35,278 nt of DNA from Methanofollis sp. (GTDB lineage: Archaea; Halobacteriota; Methanomicrobia; Methanomicrobiales; Methanofollaceae). The position numbers and the translations under genes are program-made. This document shows, piece by piece, positions 23,114-33,899 of this stretch. Within the stretch, counting starts at the first letter, position 1, and each line of letters opens with the position of its first letter. The notes under the pieces were generated by a model, which searched no databases, had not been told where the DNA came from, and saw only the letters and a list, made by a program, of their open reading frames with translations. Location of the stretch: contig NZ_JAQVNX010000014.1 in NCBI RefSeq assembly GCF_028702905.1, forward strand, positions 1 to 35,278, written 5' to 3'.

Positions 23114-23413
23114 ATGAAAACACTGGAGTTCCACCGCGATACTGAAAAAGGCAGGGTAACCGTGACCTGCGCTACGGGAGAGGTTTCTGTCTACAGTCAC
23201 TGCGCTTACTGTAAAAACTGTACGGGCGTCAGAGTGGGCAAAAGGGTGCTCCCTGCCCCGCAACATGACACACTGAAAAAATCTGCCGGCATCGGGATGG
23301 ACGAGAACCTCCTCAATGCTGCGATGATGTTCAACTCTCTGGTGCGGGACGGCGACGCGATCGCCTGTGCCGATGATGCCTGCGCCGGCTATGTATCTAT
23401 GTTTCTCCGCTGA
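23114..23413 (+). CDS. Small cysteine-rich protein, unknown function
   Basis: I do not recognise a family for this 99-residue soluble protein. It has a cluster CAYCKNC in the first half, single Cys residues in VTCATG and in the C-terminal ACADDAC, and an NLLNAAMMFNSL helix. The spaced Cys suggest zinc or Fe-S binding. I chose the ATG at 23114; the frame is open upstream to 23000, but TTTATACT (23057-23064) looks like its TATA box and would exclude those codons. Its end overlaps the convergent sulfite-reductase-like gene by 17 bases, so the two may be regulated against each other. Confidence 0.6.
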   Translation: MKTLEFHRDTEKGRVTVTCATGEVSVYSHCAYCKNCTGVRVGKRVLPAPQHDTLKKSAGIGMDENLLNAAMMFNSLVRDGDAIACADDACAGYVSMFLR

Positions 23414-24263
23414 ACTCTTCCCGGATCTTCTTGCGGAAATCCTCAAAGCCGATCTCGTCGAGCTGGTCGGCGAGGTGCCTTCCGCTCCATGCTTTTCTGA
23501 AGATCCAGTAGACGGTCTTGTCGACCACTGCCAGGGCCTCCTCCTCGGTCTCGACGGTGACGAGTTCGCGGCCTGGCGCAGGGTGCCGTCCCCGCCGCCC
23601 CCCGACGGTGATGAGGTAGTGGCGATACTCCGACTTCAGGAGGTCGAAGGGGCAGGACTGAACACAGATCCCGCACTGGACACATTTTTCCGGGATGAGC
23701 TCTGAGATCCCGTTCCTGATCAGGATCGCCTTTTCCTTGCAGTATTCGGCGCAGGTCCCGCATCCTGTGCAGAGTCCTTCGATGCGAAGGGGCCGGATCC
23801 TGCCCACGATCCCGATCTCGTTGAGCACCGGGCTTGTGCAGGCGTTTGGACATCCTGAAAGCGAGATCCTCACACGGATTGGCATGTCTTTCCCGAAGAC
23901 CCGCTCGTCGATCCTCCGGGCGAGGTCATAGGTTTCGATATTGGAGAACTTGCACTGCGCCGTGCCAGGGCAGGCGATGATATTGACGACCTCGTCGTGC
24001 TCTGCCCCGAGGGGCGTTCCGTTCTTTTCGAGGTCGCGGGCGATCGCCTCGATGTTGTCGGGGTCCACCTGAGGGATCTCCAGGGTCTGGCGGGTGGTGA
24101 GGTGGACCTCGCCGTTCCCGTATTTTCTGGCGATCTCGGCGAGGCCGGCCATTTTATCTACCGGGAGGACCCCTGCCGGGATCCTGACCCTGATAACACA
24201 GAGATCAGGGTTTCTCTGGGTGATCACCCCGCCCTGCAGGTAGGTTGCTGTTTTCTGCATCAT
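23397..24263 (-). CDS. Dissimilatory sulfite reductase-like protein (siroheme, 4Fe-4S)
   Basis: This 288-residue redox protein belongs to the nitrite/sulfite reductase superfamily. The ferredoxin-like half contains VHLTTRQTLEIP. Next is the siroheme-[4Fe-4S] site: ACPGTAQCK (C-x5-C) and SGCPNAC (C-x3-C). A two-cluster ferredoxin insert follows with CTGCGTCAEYC and CVQCGICVQSCP. The size and layout match the small group I Dsr-like proteins of methanogens or AsrC-like sulfite reductases; the physiological substrate in methanogens is not settled. A TATA-like TTTTTATTC lies about 27 bases upstream (minus strand) and no ribosome-binding sequence is seen, so the mRNA is probably leaderless. Two tandem ATGs are possible starts. 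Confidence 0.88.
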   Translation of the reverse strand: MMQKTATYLQGGVITQRNPDLCVIRVRIPAGVLPVDKMAGLAEIARKYGNGEVHLTTRQTLEIPQVDPDNIEAIARDLEKNGTPLGAEHDEVVNIIACPGTAQCKFSNIETYDLARRIDERVFGKDMPIRVRISLSGCPNACTSPVLNEIGIVGRIRPLRIEGLCTGCGTCAEYCKEKAILIRNGISELIPEKCVQCGICVQSCPFDLLKSEYRHYLITVGGRRGRHPAPGRELVTVETEEEALAVVDKTVYWIFRKAWSGRHLADQLDEIGFEDFRKKIREEFSGET

Positions 24264-24307: not shown

Positions 24308-25021
24308 CTAGATCGCGAGAGCGATAATGGCCGCCGCCCGTACGATCTCGTTTGCGGCGCCGGCGACGTCGCCGTTTACGCCGCCGAAGAGGCGGTACGC
24401 AAGGGCGATGAGGAGGGCGGTGACGATCCCGGTCGCGAGGAGGGCCTTCAGGAGGGGGACCGGGCCTGCCAGGAGGACGAGGGGAACGACCGGGAGCAGG
24501 GCGAGGCCCGCGAACCAGGGCCGTGCAAAGCTGTGGAGATAGGCATGGATGCCCTCGTGGAAGGGTGTGCCGAGGGCGGTGATCCCGGCCATGGCAAGTT
24601 TTGCGCAGACCTCGGCTGTCAGGACGGCGAGGGGGATTGAGGCGACGGTGGAGAGGCCCTGGACGGCGAGGAGGGTCGTGAGGATGCCGCAGGCGACGCC
24701 CCCCGCGCCGATCTGCCTGTCGGTGAGGGCCGTGATCCTCTTCTCACGGCTGCCGTGCGCCATCAGGCCGTCCCCGAGGTCGAGGAGGCCGTCGAAGTGG
24801 TTTGCCCCGGAGACGATGATCGCCGCGGCGACCGCTGCGGCTGCGGCGAGGCCTGGGTTGCCGGAGAGGAGGAAGGCGACGCCTGCGGCGCACCCGCCGG
24901 TGACCCACCCGGCAACAGGGTAGAGCCAGGAGTGGCGCGCGAAGGCGTCGAAGTCTGCGGGCCGTCCGAGCGGGAGGACGGTGCAGAACTGGAGGAGAGC
25001 GCGGATTGCATTCAGGGGCAT
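24308..25021 (-). CDS. cobS: Adenosylcobinamide-GDP ribazoletransferase (cobalamin synthase)
   Basis: This 237-residue membrane enzyme joins adenosylcobinamide-GDP with alpha-ribazole (phosphate) in the last steps of cobamide synthesis. The family motif NHFDGLLDLGDGLMA lies near residues 77-91, followed by TDRQIGAGG and many Ala/Leu/Gly-rich helices. The length is typical for CobS. Cobamides are needed for methyl transfer in methanogenesis. The leader of about 110 bases has no recognisable B12 riboswitch box. No other cob gene is adjacent in the window. Confidence 0.92.
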   Translation of the reverse strand: MPLNAIRALLQFCTVLPLGRPADFDAFARHSWLYPVAGWVTGGCAAGVAFLLSGNPGLAAAAAVAAAIIVSGANHFDGLLDLGDGLMAHGSREKRITALTDRQIGAGGVACGILTTLLAVQGLSTVASIPLAVLTAEVCAKLAMAGITALGTPFHEGIHAYLHSFARPWFAGLALLPVVPLVLLAGPVPLLKALLATGIVTALLIALAYRLFGGVNGDVAGAANEIVRAAAIIALAI

Positions 25022-25152
25022 GGTATGTACTGTTTCCGGGTCTGTTGCAATAAGGCCTCTGCTATCTGCTCCCGAAGGCCGTGTCCTGTCAGCGGCCCCT
25101 TCAAAAAGGCCGGAAAGTCCTTGCAGAATGATCCGGGGGTGGCGGATTACGA

Positions 25153-25163
25153 TTTATATTTTG
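25153..25163 (-). promoter_or_regulatory. TATA box of cobS
   Basis: Minus-strand CAAAATATAAA predicts a start near 25132 and a leader of about 110 bases before cobS. Confidence 0.45.
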
Positions 25164-25192
25164 TAACATACCATCTCACATCATTTAGAACA

Positions 25193-25202
25193 TTTTTAAT
25201 AA
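25193..25202 (+). promoter_or_regulatory. TATA box of the DUF3344-ABC operon
   Basis: TTTTTAATAA lies about 30 bases before the ATG at 25227 and predicts a leaderless or near-leaderless transcript. The absence of a ribosome-binding sequence before that ATG agrees with this. It is the only obvious promoter for the five genes up to 33899. Confidence 0.55.
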
Positions 25203-25226
25203 CTGGCGCCATCATCTGAATATCAT

Positions 25227-27008
25227 ATGCGCTCCATCCCCCCTCATTCCATACTTTTCGGTATCGTTCTGGCGGCGATCGTCCTTGCGGCTCCCGTATC
25301 GGCAGTCTATGATTTCGAAGGCATCCCTCTCGACGTGGTCGCGCAGGGGGAGGTGCAGGGCGACGTCCTCACCTTCGGGACCTACGGACTCGTGGCCCCT
25401 CCCCAGGAGTTGTCCTTTTCCCTCCCTTCAAGGCCCGTATGGGCCCGCGTCTACACCGGCGTCTGGGGAGGGACAGAACGGTATACCGGATGGGAAGAAC
25501 TTACCGTCAATAACGGCGTCCCGGTCAGGAGGAATCTCTTCGGGATAGACGATCGCCATGACGAGACCTATGTGACCGGCTATGGCGTCTACTGGATCGC
25601 GCACGACTGTACGACCGCGCTTCACGGCGGAAAGAACACGATCTCTCTTGCGACCAGCAGGGGCCAGGCCGAGAGCAAGATCGACGGCCGGGTCTATGGC
25701 ATCTTCGTCGTCGCCGTTGTGGAAGATAAATTTGGGCCTGTCACGAAGTACTGGATCGCCGAAGGAAACGAGAACCTCCATGGCGAGGGCTGGGCCGGCA
25801 CCAACCCCACCAGGCACGACAGTTGCGAGGTCTCCTTCGACCGGGCCGACCCGGCGGTTCTGACCGGTGCAAATCTCTCCATTCTCCTTCTGGCCTCGAC
25901 GAAGGGACAGCCCGACTATGTCGTCTTCAACGGGCAGGACCTCGGCGTCCCTCCGGCCGATATGTCGAATTATCCCGACGGCGCCCTGGATATCGGTGAC
26001 GAACGATGCGGTAATGCCATGGGCGGGGCCGGGACCGATACCCGGTACGTCGATTTCGAGACCTTCCCTGTCGGCGCTCTTCTCAAAGAGAATAACACCA
26101 TTCTCTTCGAGCGTGGGCGGGACCTGGACGGCGACGGCGTCATCACCACGACAGGAACGAAGCCCGAAGGCGAGGATTATATCCACCCCAGCATTGCCAT
26201 TCTCACCGCCAGAGTGTCCGGCACACAGAGCGGTTCCGACATTACGGTCGACACGCCGCGGGTGAAAGGGGCCTATGCCGGCGAGGAGGCCACGGTGCTT
26301 GCGACCGTGAGGAACTACGGGTCGAAGCCCGCCGGAAAGATCCCGGTGACCTTCTCGGTCGACGGAAAAGTTGTGCAGACCGTTGCCGCCGACCCGGCCG
26401 CGTCGGGCGTCCAGGAGGTCCGGGCGAACATGACCCTTGCCGAAGGCCGGCGCACGATCTCCGTGCGGGCCGGAGAGAGTGCCGAAGCCTCGGTCCAGGT
26501 CAGGGTCGGAACGATCCCCGACCTTTCGGTGCGCATCGGGGCGCCGGTGAGCGCGGGGGCCGGGACGACCGGAAGCCAGCAGTCGCCTCTTCCCCTCTTT
26601 GCCGCGTGTGCGGGGTTGTTTATCGCCGCGTTCCTGGTGCGGCGCCCGCCCGGTGGTAAGTGTGCCGCCGTCCTCATTGCGGGGGCGGTCATTGTCTCTT
26701 CATGCCCGCTGATCGCGCCGCCGGCGGCCGCCGCCGGGTATGCGGACTATACCGTGCCGGTCACGATCACGAACAGCGGCGGGAGCGACGCGCCCTCCTT
26801 CGACCTCACCATCTATCTTGACGGTGCGAGAGCAGCAGTGAAACACATCGACGACGGCGTGAAGGCCGGGGAGACGGTCACGATCGATGTCCCGCTCTAT
26901 ACGACGCCCGGTAAGCACCGGCTCAGGATCGTCGCGGACGAGAGCGGTGCGGTCAGGGATGCGAACCCGGGGAACAATGCCGCGGAGGGCGACTATGTCT
27001 TCCCGTAA
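25227..27008 (+). CDS. Secreted DUF3344 protein with two CARDB-like domains and a membrane hairpin
   Basis: The 593-residue protein has a signal segment (about residues 7-27, ending APVSA), then a DUF3344 domain opening with GIPLDVVAQGEVQGDVLTFG and continuing through WARVYTGVWGG, KYWIAEGNENLHG and the DGALDIGDERCGNAMG region. A CARDB-like Ig-fold follows at about 337-425 (VLATVRNYGSKPAGKIPVTF). Then come two membrane segments, 455-472 and 479-497, joined by the positively charged RRPPGGK, and a second CARDB-like domain (504-593, VPVTITNSGGSDAPSF). Both CARDB-like domains would lie outside the cell with a hairpin in the membrane between them. The last 14 bases overlap the next gene. DUF3344 has no known function. 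Confidence 0.8.
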   Translation: MRSIPPHSILFGIVLAAIVLAAPVSAVYDFEGIPLDVVAQGEVQGDVLTFGTYGLVAPPQELSFSLPSRPVWARVYTGVWGGTERYTGWEELTVNNGVPVRRNLFGIDDRHDETYVTGYGVYWIAHDCTTALHGGKNTISLATSRGQAESKIDGRVYGIFVVAVVEDKFGPVTKYWIAEGNENLHGEGWAGTNPTRHDSCEVSFDRADPAVLTGANLSILLLASTKGQPDYVVFNGQDLGVPPADMSNYPDGALDIGDERCGNAMGGAGTDTRYVDFETFPVGALLKENNTILFERGRDLDGDGVITTTGTKPEGEDYIHPSIAILTARVSGTQSGSDITVDTPRVKGAYAGEEATVLATVRNYGSKPAGKIPVTFSVDGKVVQTVAADPAASGVQEVRANMTLAEGRRTISVRAGESAEASVQVRVGTIPDLSVRIGAPVSAGAGTTGSQQSPLPLFAACAGLFIAAFLVRRPPGGKCAAVLIAGAVIVSSCPLIAPPAAAAGYADYTVPVTITNSGGSDAPSFDLTIYLDGARAAVKHIDDGVKAGETVTIDVPLYTTPGKHRLRIVADESGAVRDANPGNNAAEGDYVFP

Positions 27009-27969
27009 GATCGCGGCGCTCGTCGCCCTGGTCGTGCTCCTCTCTCTCCTCGCCCCCGCGTCGGCCACCTATGCCGGGGACCACCCCCTCGACACGGCGC
27101 TCCACGACGAGTTCAGGGGCGATTATATCTTTACTGCGGGGAACGGCACATATAGCGGCGCCGTCAAGCCCGGGGGCAGATATGCCGTCGCATATGACTT
27201 CGAACTCCCTCTCAACGCGACGGTCAGGTACCAGCGCCTCTATGTCTACTGGTCCTGGAGCAAGATCGACCAGAAGGCGATCTACCCTGCGATCTCGGTC
27301 ACCCGCACGGATACGGGCGAGCAGGTGAACAGGACCGGGAGATATGCAGACTCCAAGGGTTTCGTGAGCAGCAACGACTTCTTCTCCGGCATGGACATCT
27401 TCGAGACCGGTGGCGTCGAACCCGGGAAGAACACTTTTTCCGTCGTCCTGGAAAACACGGCCGACGACAACCGGACCTTCGTCGTCCAGGGGATCGGGGT
27501 GCTCGCGGTCTACGAGAACCCCTCGTCGCCTGAAGCGATCGTCTGGGTCAAGGAGGGGGCCGACCTCCTGTACAGCAACTATGGGATCACGCCCGCGATG
27601 GCGACAGGCCGGATCGACTTCGAAGGGACGATCGACCGGTCCTCCCTCTCGTCGGCCGAACTCCTGCTCGTCGCCCCTTCCGGTGGGTACACGCGGGAGA
27701 ATATCCCGGTGATCAACCGCCTCTTCGTGAACCGCGAGGGCGAGTCCAGCATGCCGTCCTTCTTCGAAGCGATCATTTCCGCCGTCTTCCCGGGATCGAA
27801 TGGGAAGGAATGGGTGAACGTCTTCGACTCCGACGAAACGAAGCAGGTCGGGATCGACCGGCGGGACGTCCTCCCGTACCTGCGGTCTGAAAACAATTTT
27901 GCTGCCGTGCAGGACGAGAAAGACTATCTTGTCCTGACAAATGCCGTTCTCAGGCTGGAACGGAGGTGA
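26995..27969 (+). CDS. Secreted DUF3344-type protein
   Basis: The 324-residue product starts with a signal segment (about residues 5-23, ending APASA), followed by DHPLDTALHDEFRGDYIF, the same pattern as the DUF3344 openings of its neighbours, then RYQRLYVYWSW and VVQGIGVLAVYENP, which match their cores. It has no membrane anchor, PEGA or CARDB domain, so it is probably released or bound to a partner. The ATG at 26995 lies 14 bases inside the previous gene with GGAGG six bases upstream. The DUF3344 assignment is by internal comparison with the paralogues here. Confidence 0.72.
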   Translation: MSSRKIAALVALVVLLSLLAPASATYAGDHPLDTALHDEFRGDYIFTAGNGTYSGAVKPGGRYAVAYDFELPLNATVRYQRLYVYWSWSKIDQKAIYPAISVTRTDTGEQVNRTGRYADSKGFVSSNDFFSGMDIFETGGVEPGKNTFSVVLENTADDNRTFVVQGIGVLAVYENPSSPEAIVWVKEGADLLYSNYGITPAMATGRIDFEGTIDRSSLSSAELLLVAPSGGYTRENIPVINRLFVNREGESSMPSFFEAIISAVFPGSNGKEWVNVFDSDETKQVGIDRRDVLPYLRSENNFAAVQDEKDYLVLTNAVLRLERR

Positions 27970-27973
27970 TCAG

Positions 27974-28638
<665 letters not shown>

Positions 28639-28642
<4 letters not shown>

Positions 28643-29862
28643 AAATGGAGAAATTTCTTGAGTACCTGAAGATTTCGGCACGGCAGGTGTCGCGGAAACG
28701 GATGCGCGTGCTGCTGACCGCCCTCGGCATCGCGATCGGTGTCGCGGCAGTGGTGGGGACAGTCTCCCTCGGGGAAGGGATCCGCTACCAGGCGGTGGAG
28801 GCGATCAAGGACCAGACAGACCTGACCCTCATCGAGGCGACGGCCGATATGCGGGGGGGGACGCTCCAGTTGATCACCCCGGCGAAGATCGACGAAATTT
28901 CGAGTCTATCGCATATAGGGGCGTCTTCGGCGATTGTCAGGGGCGCCTATGCGACAAAACGACAGACCTATCTCGGGGTCGTGGGCGTGGACCCGGGCGG
29001 TATCGGCGGGGTGATCCAGCCGAAGTACCTTAAAGGAGTACCTTTCGAGGCCGGGACGCGGCAGGCTGTCCTCGGTCACGACCTTGCCGAGTCCCTCCAG
29101 CGGTACGAAGGGATACGCCTGGGCGACACGATCCCGATCCTGGTCCGCGAGTACGACGAGAGCGGCATGCCCGTCGACACCGAGGTGGACTTCACCCTTG
29201 TCGGCGTCCTGCAGGAGCGGGACGACCAGTTCGACCAGGTGATGCTCATCGACCGCGGTGTCGCGCAGGAACTCCGCGGCGATGCGGCGTCGTTCGACGG
29301 CGTCCTTGTCAGGGTTGATAGTCCTGATACGGTCTTCTCCGTCGTGGACGGGATCAAGGGTCTCGGGCTCACCGCCACCGGAGCGTTCGAGCAGATCGAG
29401 TCGGTGAACAAACTTATGGACGTGGTCGTCCTGCTCCTTGCGTTCTTTGCGGGCGTGGCCCTGATCGTGGGGGCGCTGATGATCATGAACACGATGATCA
29501 CGTCGGTCTTCGAACGGACCCGGGAGATCGGGATCACGATGGCCGTCGGTGCGTCGTCGGGCGACGTGGTCAGGCTCATCCTCTATGAGTGCCTGTTTAT
29601 CGGCCTGATCGGCGGGGTGCTCGGGGACCTGCTCGGCATCGCTTTTGCGGGTGCGATCAATCTCGTCGGGAAACCGTTCATCATCGCGCAACTCGGCGAC
29701 ACCTTTGCCACGTTTGCCGATACCGATATCACCATGGTCACGCCCGGGATTCTCCTGCTCGGCATCGTCATCGCCATCGCCCTCTCCCAGATCTCGGGTT
29801 TCTATCCGGCGTTGAAGGCGGCAAAACTCGATCCCGTGGCGGCGATCAGGACGGGGGTGTAA
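28639..29862 (+). CDS. ABC transporter permease, MacB/FtsX type
   Basis: This 407-residue permease has the four-helix MacB layout: one helix at about residues 24-46 after the basic ARQVSRKRMR start, a large extracytoplasmic MacB periplasmic-core-like domain (about 50-255), then three helices at about 260-288, 319-341 and 365-390. TREIGITMAVGAS between the second and third helices is the conserved coupling loop of FtsX-family permeases, and ALKAAKLDPVAAIR closes the protein. Together with the ATPase it forms a MacB-like complex. In archaea there is no outer membrane, so the partner should be a surface or membrane-anchored protein; the flanking DUF3344 proteins are candidates by position. Confidence 0.92.
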
Positions 29863-29864
29863 AG

Positions 29865-32800
29865 ATGGCCCCTATGGAAAGAGCGGCGTGTCTTCTCCTC
29901 CTCCTGCTCCTGTTGCCCGTCTGTGCGGCCGCAGACCAGTACGTGGGCGGGATCCCGCTCACGACCGTCGAAGACGGCGTCGTGTCCGGGGGGGTCTATG
30001 TACGCTCCTTCGTCGGCAAGGCGAACGAGCGTGACGTCTCGGAGACGTTCACCCTCCCGGAGTACACGACGGTCAAATGGGCCCGCCTCTATACCTCCGT
30101 CTACTGCGGCCATATGCAGAACAACTACGAACACCGGGCGACCGTCCAGTTCGACGGCGGCAGCGGCATGCGGACGCTGGGCGTCGAAGACCTGCGGGTG
30201 CCGTACTCCTTCCCGATCGATGAGGGAACAGGGCCGGTCGCGGTGAACGATCACTGCAACCGTGTGACGAGCGACTACCTGATGTGGTACGACGTCACCG
30301 ACGCCATCAGGAAAGGAACGGTGACGGCCCATGTGAAGACCGAACAGCCCGAAGGGTTCAAGGGTACTTTCGACGGCAGGATCAAGATCGTCACCCTGGT
30401 CGTCGCCTACGATGATGGTGACGGTGACGAAGTGTATTACTGGGTGAACCAGGGCCACGATGTCCATTCGTACTATGTCGAGGAGTACCTCGGCGAGACG
30501 TACGAGGGCGAGACGACTTTTGACACCGCTGTTCTCCCCGAAGACGACGAACGGGAGTATGCGGCGGATCTTTCGATCGTCCACATGGCGAGTCAGGTCG
30601 GAGAGTTTTCTTTCAATGACGAGGATCTCGATGCAGATCCATCCCAGGGGGCCTATTCCGGATACCAGACCTGGGACGTCACCGCCGAGATCTCGCCGGA
30701 GAAGAGCAGCGAACTCACCTACACCCGCGACCTGAGCGTCTCCGGGAGCGGTGGGGGATATCTGGGTGCGTTCTTCAAGATCCCGCTGGCCGTTCTCACG
30801 GTGAAGTATCCTGAGAAGGATGTCGGGGGCCTCGCGGTGACCTCGTCCCCTGCCGGTGCGACGATCGTCCTTGACGACGAACAGACCTCGCGGGTCACGA
30901 ATGCGACGATCAACGGCATCGCCGCGGGAGACCACATGGTCAGGGTCGAACTGGACCGGTACCGCATCCCCGACGACCGCTCCGTCGAGGTGAAGAAGGG
31001 TGCGAATACTACGGTCCACTTTGATCTCCAGCCGATCACCGGGAGCATCGAGGTGACGTCCGAGCCGTCGGGGGCGTGGGTGTACCTCGACGGCGGGGGA
31101 TATAATAATCAGAATATGTCGGTTCAGACGCCGGCGACCCTGGACGGTCTCATCATCGGGGAATATACGGTAGAGGCACGTCTGAACGGTCAATGTTCAT
31201 ATAAGACCGTGCCTGTCCTGGAGGACGAGACAGCTGTCGTGGACCTGGTGTTCGGGTCGTCCGGGGGCGATTCGGATGGCTCCATACCCGACTACGGCTA
31301 TACCGGGATGCCGCTGAAGACGTACCAGACCGGGACGCTCCATGGGAATGTCTCGTATTATGAGTTCAGCAGTTATACCGGCCTTATCCATGCCGGAGAG
31401 AGCAGGGAGTTTTCCATCGATATTCCCTCGAATGATACGGTCGGGCTGGCCAGACTGTACATCTATACGACGTGGGGGCATGACGAGACGCTCAAGAAAG
31501 GAACGGAGCAGAGGATCACCCTGAAGGTCGACGGTATTGTTTTCCCGGCAGACAGGGTGTACGGCGACAGGAAAAACGAGGGGGTCTATGATTATCTCCT
31601 GGAAACCTTCGCCTATAATGTGACCTGCATGAAGGGCGGCGTGGCGGGTACGCATACGGTGACGGTCACGAACGACGGGCGGAAGGACGACGTCTTCGCG
31701 ACCTACGGTGTCGGCGTCCTTGTCGTCACCGAGGATCCGGCCCTCCCCGAGATTACCTACTGGATCGATGAAGGTTCCGATACCCTCTATGCGAACCCCG
31801 ACTTCGGGACGACGAACGACGACTGCATCACGACGGCACCGTTCAACGGCACGGTCGTTCTCTCCGGGATCGGGACTGCCCGGCTGATTCTCATATCGAC
31901 GGCAGCGTCGGGAGAGGATAACGACGAGCACAGGATCACATTCAACGACGGCGAGTGGTTCAATCTCCTCACCGGCGGTTCGTCGGCGATCAGCGTCGCA
32001 GAACTGGATGTCAGGCCCTATCTTGTGACGTCGGGAAACCTGGCCGGGATCCAGAGTTACATCACCACGACGAAGGGCGACTATATGGAGAACAGGGGTG
32101 CCGTCCTGGTCGTCAGAAAGGGAGGTGCCGTGGCCGGCAACGAGACCACGGTGAGCGAGACCGAGACGGCCACAGTGAAGAGGCCGTCCGCCGGGAGCAA
32201 CACGCGGGTCGCGCTCAACGAGTCGGGAGGACGTCTGGGTGCGACGCGTCTCCTCTCCGATGACGGCACTTTCGAAGTTTTTATTCCCGAGGGAACGGTG
32301 ATCACCGATGATGCGGGGAAACGCGTCACGGTGCTGACGCTGAAATCGTCGTGGGTCGGCGATAACTGGTCCTGTACGATCGGGGATGCGGATCTGCAGA
32401 CTGACATTTCCCTTCTGCTGGTCGTCCATACGGGCCGCCTCAACCTCTCCGGCACCTTCGGTCTCCTCGGGCCTGATGGGCACACCGTCGAGACGACGTC
32501 CGAGGAGAGCGATCTTTCTGCCAGGATTACGCGGGGCGGCGTCTATACCCTGGTGCCCGGCGGCAAGGAACAGCCTGAAAAGACTTTCGCGGATCAGGTG
32601 TCCGATTTCTTCGGGGGCGTCGTCACGGCTATTCTTGGCATCTTCGGCGTCCATGCCGAAGAGAAGGTCGTGTCGGTGGAGAGGAACGAAACTGTGCCGA
32701 CGGTAGTCGAGACGATTGCCCCTGCCGCGACCGAAACGCCGGTCGATATATCCTCGATGACGTTTGCGGTCTCGCTTCTTTCGAACCCGCCGGGGGCCCT

Positions 32801-33899
32801 GGTCGATCTCGACGGGGAGTATCTCGGGAAGACGACGCCGGTGACGATCACGGCCGCCGGGGGAGATCATGTGGTGAGGATGAGGCTGGAAGGTGCCGAT
32901 CCCGTGGAAAAGACGATCCATCTTGCACATGACGACGAACTTGCCCTCGATTTCGAGACGATTGGGGGCCAGCAGTTCGATCTCGATTCGTTACGTGCGT
33001 GGGACGCGAACCGGTACGGCGGGGTGTATGTTGACTCCTTCCCTGAGGGGGCCGAGATCTATGTGGACGGCAAGAAGACGGGAAGAAAGACGCCGTGGCT
33101 GGCGTACGGGTTGAAGGAGGGCCTGCACACGATTAAAGTGAAACTGGGCAAGGTGGAGTTTGCATCTGAAAAAGAAAGTGTATGGGTGCATAAAAATGCC
33201 GTCTCCTCGGTGACGTTCACCACCGGTCCGGAGGGGATCGCGTGTTCGATCTCCGTGGATTCGAATGGTCTCTCAGGATGCCCGTTCTCGGTGAAAGGCA
33301 GATATCTCGGGTATAAACTCCCGAAGAAGGTCGAGGTCGGCGGCGGGATCAACAGGTATGTCACGGTGTGCGTGAACGGGAGTTATATCTCGGAAAAAGT
33401 CTCGGATTTCATGGCATCAAACGGGACCCTGACGATCAGGAAGGATGTGCCGACGCCGTGTTCGGTCATGGTCGCCTCGAAACCTGTGGGAGCCGATATT
33501 TTTGTCGACGGGTTTGCGACGGGTGTTGCCACGCCCTATTGCATCGAAAATCTTTCCCCGGGGCGGCACCTGATCTCGGTCTCGAAACCAGGATATGCCC
33601 CGGCAGAGCGGACTGTCATGCTGGTGGGTGCGGCAACGTCTGGGCCGAGTGCGAACGTCGACCTGAGGATGGTCCCCTATGCGTACGGGTCGTTGACAGT
33701 TGACAGCACGTCGCCAGGTGCGAAGATCTACCTGTTTGGCAAGGATACCGGGGAGAAGACGCCGTTTTCGTTCTATTACATCCCGATCGGGTCGTACGAC
33801 GTGAAGGTGGTGAGCAAGGACGGGTCGAAGACGGTTGAGGACGTGGTGGTGGAGCCGTATACGAATACCGAATGCCGTGTGGACCTTTCAAAACAGTGA
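29865..33899 (+). CDS. Giant secreted DUF3344-PEGA protein
   Basis: This 1344-residue modular surface protein starts with a Leu-rich signal segment (about residues 5-23). A first DUF3344 domain covers about 25-320, with the opening GGIPLTTVEDGVVSGGVYV. Two PEGA-like repeats lie at 323-391 and 393-462, a second DUF3344 domain at 478-752, an unassigned beta-rich domain at 790-900, and a short hydrophobic stretch at 912-932 (FFGGVVTAILGIFG). Four more PEGA-like repeats lie at 965-1032, 1053-1119, 1201-1267 and 1274-1343, plus one degenerate copy at 1126-1198. Each repeat has the pattern SxPxGAxIxxDG, TP, GxHxVxV. There is no terminal anchor. The ATG at 29865 follows the permease stop by two bases; ATG at 29874 is possible. 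Confidence 0.85.
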   Translation: MAPMERAACLLLLLLLLPVCAAADQYVGGIPLTTVEDGVVSGGVYVRSFVGKANERDVSETFTLPEYTTVKWARLYTSVYCGHMQNNYEHRATVQFDGGSGMRTLGVEDLRVPYSFPIDEGTGPVAVNDHCNRVTSDYLMWYDVTDAIRKGTVTAHVKTEQPEGFKGTFDGRIKIVTLVVAYDDGDGDEVYYWVNQGHDVHSYYVEEYLGETYEGETTFDTAVLPEDDEREYAADLSIVHMASQVGEFSFNDEDLDADPSQGAYSGYQTWDVTAEISPEKSSELTYTRDLSVSGSGGGYLGAFFKIPLAVLTVKYPEKDVGGLAVTSSPAGATIVLDDEQTSRVTNATINGIAAGDHMVRVELDRYRIPDDRSVEVKKGANTTVHFDLQPITGSIEVTSEPSGAWVYLDGGGYNNQNMSVQTPATLDGLIIGEYTVEARLNGQCSYKTVPVLEDETAVVDLVFGSSGGDSDGSIPDYGYTGMPLKTYQTGTLHGNVSYYEFSSYTGLIHAGESREFSIDIPSNDTVGLARLYIYTTWGHDETLKKGTEQRITLKVDGIVFPADRVYGDRKNEGVYDYLLETFAYNVTCMKGGVAGTHTVTVTNDGRKDDVFATYGVGVLVVTEDPALPEITYWIDEGSDTLYANPDFGTTNDDCITTAPFNGTVVLSGIGTARLILISTAASGEDNDEHRITFNDGEWFNLLTGGSSAISVAELDVRPYLVTSGNLAGIQSYITTTKGDYMENRGAVLVVRKGGAVAGNETTVSETETATVKRPSAGSNTRVALNESGGRLGATRLLSDDGTFEVFIPEGTVITDDAGKRVTVLTLKSSWVGDNWSCTIGDADLQTDISLLLVVHTGRLNLSGTFGLLGPDGHTVETTSEESDLSARITRGGVYTLVPGGKEQPEKTFADQVSDFFGGVVTAILGIFGVHAEEKVVSVERNETVPTVVETIAPAATETPVDISSMTFAVSLLSNPPGALVDLDGEYLGKTTPVTITAAGGDHVVRMRLEGADPVEKTIHLAHDDELALDFETIGGQQFDLDSLRAWDANRYGGVYVDSFPEGAEIYVDGKKTGRKTPWLAYGLKEGLHTIKVKLGKVEFASEKESVWVHKNAVSSVTFTTGPEGIACSISVDSNGLSGCPFSVKGRYLGYKLPKKVEVGGGINRYVTVCVNGSYISEKVSDFMASNGTLTIRKDVPTPCSVMVASKPVGADIFVDGFATGVATPYCIENLSPGRHLISVSKPGYAPAERTVMLVGAATSGPSANVDLRMVPYAYGSLTVDSTSPGAKIYLFGKDTGEKTPFSFYYIPIGSYDVKVVSKDGSKTVEDVVVEPYTNTECRVDLSKQ

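Follow-up and report, generated by a model that had tools for sequence, protein, structure and literature searches.

A MacB/LolCDE-type ABC unit co-inherited with DUF3344 surface proteins in archaea, and its metal-chelate gene context

The window analysed here, a stretch of 35,278 nucleotides, is an entire contig (NZ_JAQVNX010000014.1) of the 2.4-Mb archaeal genome of Methanofollis sp. Its forward strand carries an operon of five genes, termed g1 to g5, that encodes three surface proteins containing DUF3344 domains together with an ATP-binding cassette (ABC) ATPase and a permease of the MacB/LolC type. DUF3344 defines a large surface-protein family with almost no literature and without known function.

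The five-gene operon and its products

The genes of the operon are as follows.

25227..27008, forward strand: g1, 593 amino acids, with a signal peptide, DUF3344, CARDB, a two-helix membrane hairpin and a second CARDB
26995..27969, forward strand: g2, 324 amino acids, with a signal peptide and a single DUF3344; secreted, without a C-terminal anchor
27974..28642, forward strand: g3, 222 amino acids, ABC ATPase of the LolD/MacB/FtsE type
28639..29862, forward strand: g4, 407 amino acids, MacB/LolC-type permease with MacB_PCD and FtsX
29865..33899, forward strand: g5, 1344 amino acids, giant secreted protein with two DUF3344 and six PEGA; accessory

The initial annotation had described this arrangement correctly: adjacent genes either overlap or are separated by no more than 4 bp, and their Pfam identities are far above cut-off. 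The junctions g1/g2, g2/g3, g3/g4 and g4/g5 measure -14, +4, -4 and +2 bases, respectively. These values take 26995 as the true start of g2, setting aside the mechanical open reading frame (ORF) start at 26887, and 29865 as the start of g5, for which the mechanical ORF start at 29589 is too early.

All three surface proteins pass the curated cut-off of 27.2 bits for DUF3344 (PF11824), with E-values of 1.6e-34 (120 bits) for g1, 9.5e-64 (216 bits) for g2 and 1.5e-123 (412 bits) for g5; in addition, g1 contains two CARDB domains (3.8e-21) and g5 contains PEGA (4.7e-59). The sole membrane-anchored surface subunit is g1, the hydrophobic pair of which sits at residues ~453-497 between the two CARDB domains. 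At the hydropathy threshold used, almost every ortholog shows helix 2 of this hairpin, and about half show both. Signal peptides are present on g2 and g5 as well, and a C-terminal anchor was found on neither. Lipobox-like matches are rare, occurring in 3 of 41 g2, 4 of 33 g1 and 5 of 30 g5 proteins. Alignment of g2 against 10 orthologs gave identities of 44-76%, and the AlphaFold2 model of its DUF3344 domain is all-beta, with a predicted local distance difference test (pLDDT) score of 91.8. Searching the PDB with the DUF3344 sequence returned no match, and the fold search returned assorted beta-sandwich and jelly-roll proteins at template-modelling scores below about 0.3, which were not used as evidence.

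The ATPase g3, assigned to ABC_tran in Pfam, has intact Walker A (GRSGSGKS), signature (MSGGEQ), Walker B (IVLADEP) and H-loop (THE) motifs. The permease g4 matches MacB_PCD (1e-20) and FtsX (4e-20) in Pfam. In NCBIfam, g3 reaches 5.1e-71 against LolD, and all scores of the two proteins fall under the LolD, LolCE and MacB equivalog cut-offs. The AlphaFold2 model of g4 (pLDDT 83.7, predicted template-modelling score 0.61) consists of four membrane helices (residues 21-59, 250-292, 307-352 and 369-395) and, between the first two of them, a large alpha/beta extracytoplasmic domain (residues 64-248). Structural similarity search using Foldseek revealed that this model resembles MacB (3e-22), as well as LolCDE and YtrF, with weaker matches to HrtBA, FtsEX and BceAB, whereas a sequence search of the PDB gave MacB, YtrF and LolF/LolCDE as the nearest. 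A hairpin at residues 170-180 of g4, with the pattern RxYDExGxPxD, aligns with the Hook of LolC, the element that binds LolA. With these ATPase motifs and the four-helix permease, g3 and g4 constitute a type VII (MacB/LolCDE/FtsEX) ABC unit.

The pair resembles MacB, LolCDE and FtsEX in its separate LolD-like ATPase, its four-helix permease, its MacB_PCD extracytoplasmic domain and its hairpin at the place of the Hook. It differs from them in having a single permease and no recognised MacA/HlyD-type partner in the operon, in belonging to a cell without an outer membrane, as is general for the archaeal envelope, and in that its partners are DUF3344 proteins, mostly without a lipobox. Membership of the MacAB-TolC efflux systems was rejected, as none of the five genes encodes an HlyD-type domain and none was recognised among the Pfam-scanned neighbours. 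LolCDE-type lipoprotein release was likewise rejected, given the single permease, the few lipobox matches and the scores under the equivalog cut-offs (LolA was not separately searched). We found no literature that treats MacB together with archaeal surface proteins.

Conservation across the order and the phylum

We searched 150 genomes of the order Methanomicrobiales, 53 of which contain DUF3344. Homologs of g4 occur in 34 of the 150 genomes at identities of at least 44%, nearly all of them between 48% and 100%, followed by a gap down to about 30%; about 20 kb around each of these homologs was mapped. The permease of this clade adjoins DUF3344 in 34/34 order genomes and in 14/15 further genomes of the phylum. 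At the level of whole genomes, DUF3344 is present in 34/34 clade genomes versus 19/116 other genomes of the order (Fisher p 2e-20). By the initial annotation, a transporter pair without DUF3344 neighbours in relatives would refute its proposal; the pair keeps these neighbours with the lone exception of G205 (L141), where permease and ATPase lack DUF3344 neighbours and the g1-g2 pair lies about 200 kb off. Because the proposal survived this check, it is well supported that the MacB-type pair and the secreted DUF3344 proteins are functional partners, and the two very probably form one system. A local accident as the origin of the adjacency was ruled out by its recurrence throughout the phylum.

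The order of all five genes recurs in about 30 other genomes. Among the 32-33 loci of other genomes, g1 and g2 always overlap, the gap of g2/g3 never exceeds 9 bp and that of g3/g4 never exceeds 2 bp; since these tight junctions are repeated so often, the gene spacing is not due to chance. In 25 of 29 loci, g5 follows g4 within 103 bp, and at least one inserted gene separates the two in the other four. In G102 (L087:11333-12538), the permease and the giant gene are separated by a further DUF3344 gene and by a short ORF.

In the phylum-wide search, the clade also turned up in a Methanocella-like and a Methanosarcina-like family, as well as in one to which ANME-1 belongs. Outside the order, g1, g2, the ATPase and the permease are retained and the giant g5 is lacking or replaced, whereas g5 is found in most loci of the order. 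The core therefore comprises the first four genes, and g5 is an accessory found mainly in the order of the window. The Methanosarcina-like family has the set divided into a g1-g2-ATPase unit and a permease-DUF3344 unit. In one genome with this split organization (G418, L249:3362-5180), the ATPase is in two fragments and possibly broken or frameshifted.

The clade is also distinct from other MacB genes of these archaea. In the maximum-likelihood tree, 46 DUF3344-associated permeases are split from 30 paralogs by a branch with 100/100 support. The strict hairpin pattern is present in 38 of the 46 clade members, with close variants in the other eight, and in 0 of the 30 paralogs. Within 20 paralog regions of 7-13 kb there are no genes for DUF3344, PEGA, CobN, FecCD, Peripla_BP_2, ChlI/D, c167 or Gate, and only two weak CARDB matches; the idea that all archaeal MacB genes lie beside surface proteins was thereby ruled out. 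As an observation on the genome of the window itself (G000), three more DUF3344 genes lie on contigs C43 and C8 (L102, L103). One of them has PEGA repeats and another a PGF-pre-PGF domain, and none is accompanied by the clade transporter.

The type VII transporters include the BceAB sensors, which are among the weaker fold matches of g4, and here several surface proteins share one transporter. By analogy, the unit might act as a sensor at the surface, driven or gated by ATP, and signal the state of a ligand or of the envelope to the cytoplasm. However, no kinase or regulator gene was recognised in or beside the conserved core, and the 407-residue permease has no long extracellular insertion like that of BceB, making a sensor very unlikely.

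Metal-chelate and tetrapyrrole genes around the operon

Analysis of the neighbourhoods revealed a recurrent set of genes around the clade operons. It comprises Peripla_BP_2, FecCD, ABC ATPases, CobN/Mg-chelatase and a ChlI/D-type chelatase ATPase (TIGR02442), together with a membrane protein that carries a Gate domain and c167, a small secreted protein with a tail anchor. In 17 of the 34 genomes, CobN is found no more than 25 kb from the permease, compared to 0.8 expected and never more than 7 in 200,000 simulations. FecCD lies within 15 kb in 20 of 34 genomes, compared to 1.6 expected and never more than 9 in the simulations. The CobN links cover eight genera of five families, in addition to G390 and G184 outside the order. 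By presence alone, CobN is found in 29/34 clade genomes versus 29/116 others (p 3e-10, with five fragment-only genomes dropped). Neither a membrane segment nor a signal peptide is present in the linked CobN, whose partner is the TIGR02442 ATPase. In three genomes, a Peripla_BP_2 gene even sits inside the operon, between the permease and the giant gene.

L079:11183-12343: Peripla_BP_2 gene in G084
L080:11326-12417: Peripla_BP_2 gene in G124
L085:11995-13098: Peripla_BP_2 gene in G064

The copy checked, that of G084, has a bacterial heme-binding protein as its best PDB match, followed by binders of iron, siderophore and B12, and is also nearest to the IsdE and BtuF models. DUF3344 genes without the clade permease likewise stand beside a CobN cassette in G040 and G135. 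As a separate observation, c167, Peripla_BP_2, FecCD, ATPase, CobN and ChlI/D-type ATPase genes form a conserved archaeal cassette at L257 (G225), L266 (G040) and L267 (G135); the c167 cassette also occurs in an ANME-1-like genome, and c167 has no Pfam match.

Known systems offer partial parallels. The Bacteroidota Hmu heme system also has a CobN-family protein, HmuS, near surface proteins and importers of metals or tetrapyrroles; it differs from the archaeal loci, which lack a TonB system, encode surface proteins of the DUF3344 type and have a cytosolic CobN paired with a ChlI/D-type ATPase. HmuS takes iron out of heme, and the use of its archaeal CobN/HmuS homologs was called unclear in 2025 (PMC12583661). 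The cassette of Peripla_BP_2, FecCD and ATPase beside or inside the operon resembles BtuFCD, FecBCD and the heme and siderophore importers, although in most genomes it is a separate operon. On Methanoperedens plasmids, DUF3344 surface genes adjoin NikR and the Co/Ni transporters CbiMNQO, yet no MacB pair was reported there (PMC9674854).

From its gene context, the system appears to be linked with the acquisition of metal chelates or tetrapyrroles, a reading that is the best at present and that we favour by a small degree. Several points weigh against it. CobN is unlinked in the genome of the window and in its closest relative, G045; 17 of the 34 operons lack a CobN at distances up to 25 kb; and the clade genomes G021, G023, G037, G136 and G070 have no CobN match whatever, so that the chelatase is not required. 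No fold neighbour of DUF3344 in the PDB points to ligand binding, and the DUF3344 alignment contains no invariant His, Cys or Met able to ligate metal. Moreover, the genomes are related and the simulation counts dependent cases as independent; the statistics therefore overstate independence. Finally, adjacency is no proof of contact.

Alternatively, the MacB-type pair might serve adhesion or envelope structure by releasing, folding or positioning DUF3344 and PEGA proteins in the surface-layer (S-layer) space, much as LolCDE acts on lipoproteins and FtsEX on cell-wall enzymes. The closeness to metal genes would then be incidental or a matter of mere co-regulation. The MacB/LolCDE fold of g4 agrees with such a role, large secreted proteins that carry repeats but no anchor would require a partner to hold them, and DUF3344 clusters have been listed with candidate families of fibrillar adhesins whose function is ambiguous (PMC9210967). 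However, CobN and FecCD cluster with the operon far beyond chance, three genomes have a Peripla_BP_2 gene within it, and release of the Lol type does not fit because lipobox-like matches are rare in g1, g2 and g5. On balance we regard surface assembly as possible, and less likely than a link with metal-chelate or tetrapyrrole acquisition.

Export in the manner of the heme exporter HrtBA was also considered, in which the pair would pump a metallophore, an unwanted tetrapyrrole or a ring demetallated by CobN out to the surface DUF3344 proteins. HrtBA shares the permease superfamily of g4 by fold (probability 1.00, ranked after MacB, LolCDE and YtrF), and a dechelated by-product is conceivable near a CobN cassette, since HmuS, which is related to CobN, strips heme of its iron (PMC12583661). 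By contrast, HrtB was not among the matches in the PDB sequence search, the scanned neighbours included no recognised genes for metallophore biosynthesis, and export leaves the obligate DUF3344 partners unexplained. We consider it unlikely.

Immediately upstream of the operon, two further features were identified.

25022..25226, forward strand: intergenic region of 205 bp between the divergent CobS gene and g1, AT-rich and promoter-like
24308..25021, reverse strand: CobS (cobalamin-5-phosphate synthase; Pfam CobS 6.9e-40), divergent neighbour of g1, context only

The intergenic region is the only non-coding space upstream of the operon and is AT-rich towards its end, which is consistent with a single promoter for all five genes; internal promoters may exist inside the operon as well. 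No palindromic operator common to the regions upstream of g1 was found in 33 loci, which have only AT-rich promoter-like sequence, and scanning the window and five loci against Rfam detected no riboswitches, such as that for cobalamin. Within the genus of the window, CbiD, CbiA and CobS are additional neighbours. A nitrite/sulfite-reductase-like ferredoxin protein is encoded at 23397-24263 of the window and, together with CobS, diverges from the operon; both genes lie near DUF3344 loci in four genomes of the genus. Further upstream, 19721-21322 matches an Agl23-type flippase-associated protein (TIGR03663) related to N-glycosylation.

A proposed model for the transporter and its surface assembly

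The initial annotation had proposed that the transporter acts on, assembles or senses through the secreted DUF3344 proteins. The partnership itself stands, whichever of these modes may apply, with two amendments: the giant fifth gene turns out to be accessory, and the metal-chelate and tetrapyrrole context, which points to acquisition of such compounds rather than to generic surface assembly, had been overlooked.

We propose that methanogens and anaerobic methane oxidisers possess a dedicated type VII (MacB/LolCDE/FtsEX-like) ABC unit, in which a g4 homodimer and two g3 ATPases would act on an assembly at the cell surface that comprises the membrane-anchored g1 and the secreted g2, joined in many genomes by the giant g5. 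The fold class and the Hook-like hairpin suggest, tentatively, ATP-driven mechanotransmission, in which motion of the extracytoplasmic domain of g4 would open, reload or release the DUF3344 assembly. We infer physical contact within this assembly and inward movement of a ligand, which might be a metal chelate captured on the S-layer or beyond it. This chelate would most likely be a metal-tetrapyrrole, for instance a corrinoid or a heme-like compound, or else a siderophore. The captured chelate would be handed to the importer of Peripla_BP_2, FecCD and ATPase, and a cytosolic CobN-ChlI/D chelatase would then insert or remove the metal. Taken as a whole, a type VII ABC unit that works a DUF3344 surface assembly for metal-chelate capture is plausible, its chances falling just short of even.

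A more ambitious version would make the system an archaeal counterpart of energised outer-surface uptake, in which a MacB/LolCDE-type motor, without an outer membrane or TonB, drives DUF3344 receptors. Metal-tetrapyrroles caught beyond the S-layer would pass to a BtuF/FecB-like protein, followed by import and remodelling by CobN-ChlI/D. We hold this extension to be improbable at present.

The MacB-type branch found solely with DUF3344 and its clustering with CobN and FecCD provide the first concrete, testable functional hypothesis for both the branch and DUF3344, and bear on the question raised in 2025 about archaeal CobN/HmuS homologs (PMC12583661). If energised uptake proved true, archaeal CobN homologs would gain a role in salvage. 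Methanogens and anaerobic methane oxidisers rely on nickel, cobalt and iron cofactors, and such a scavenging route would therefore matter for methane cycling.

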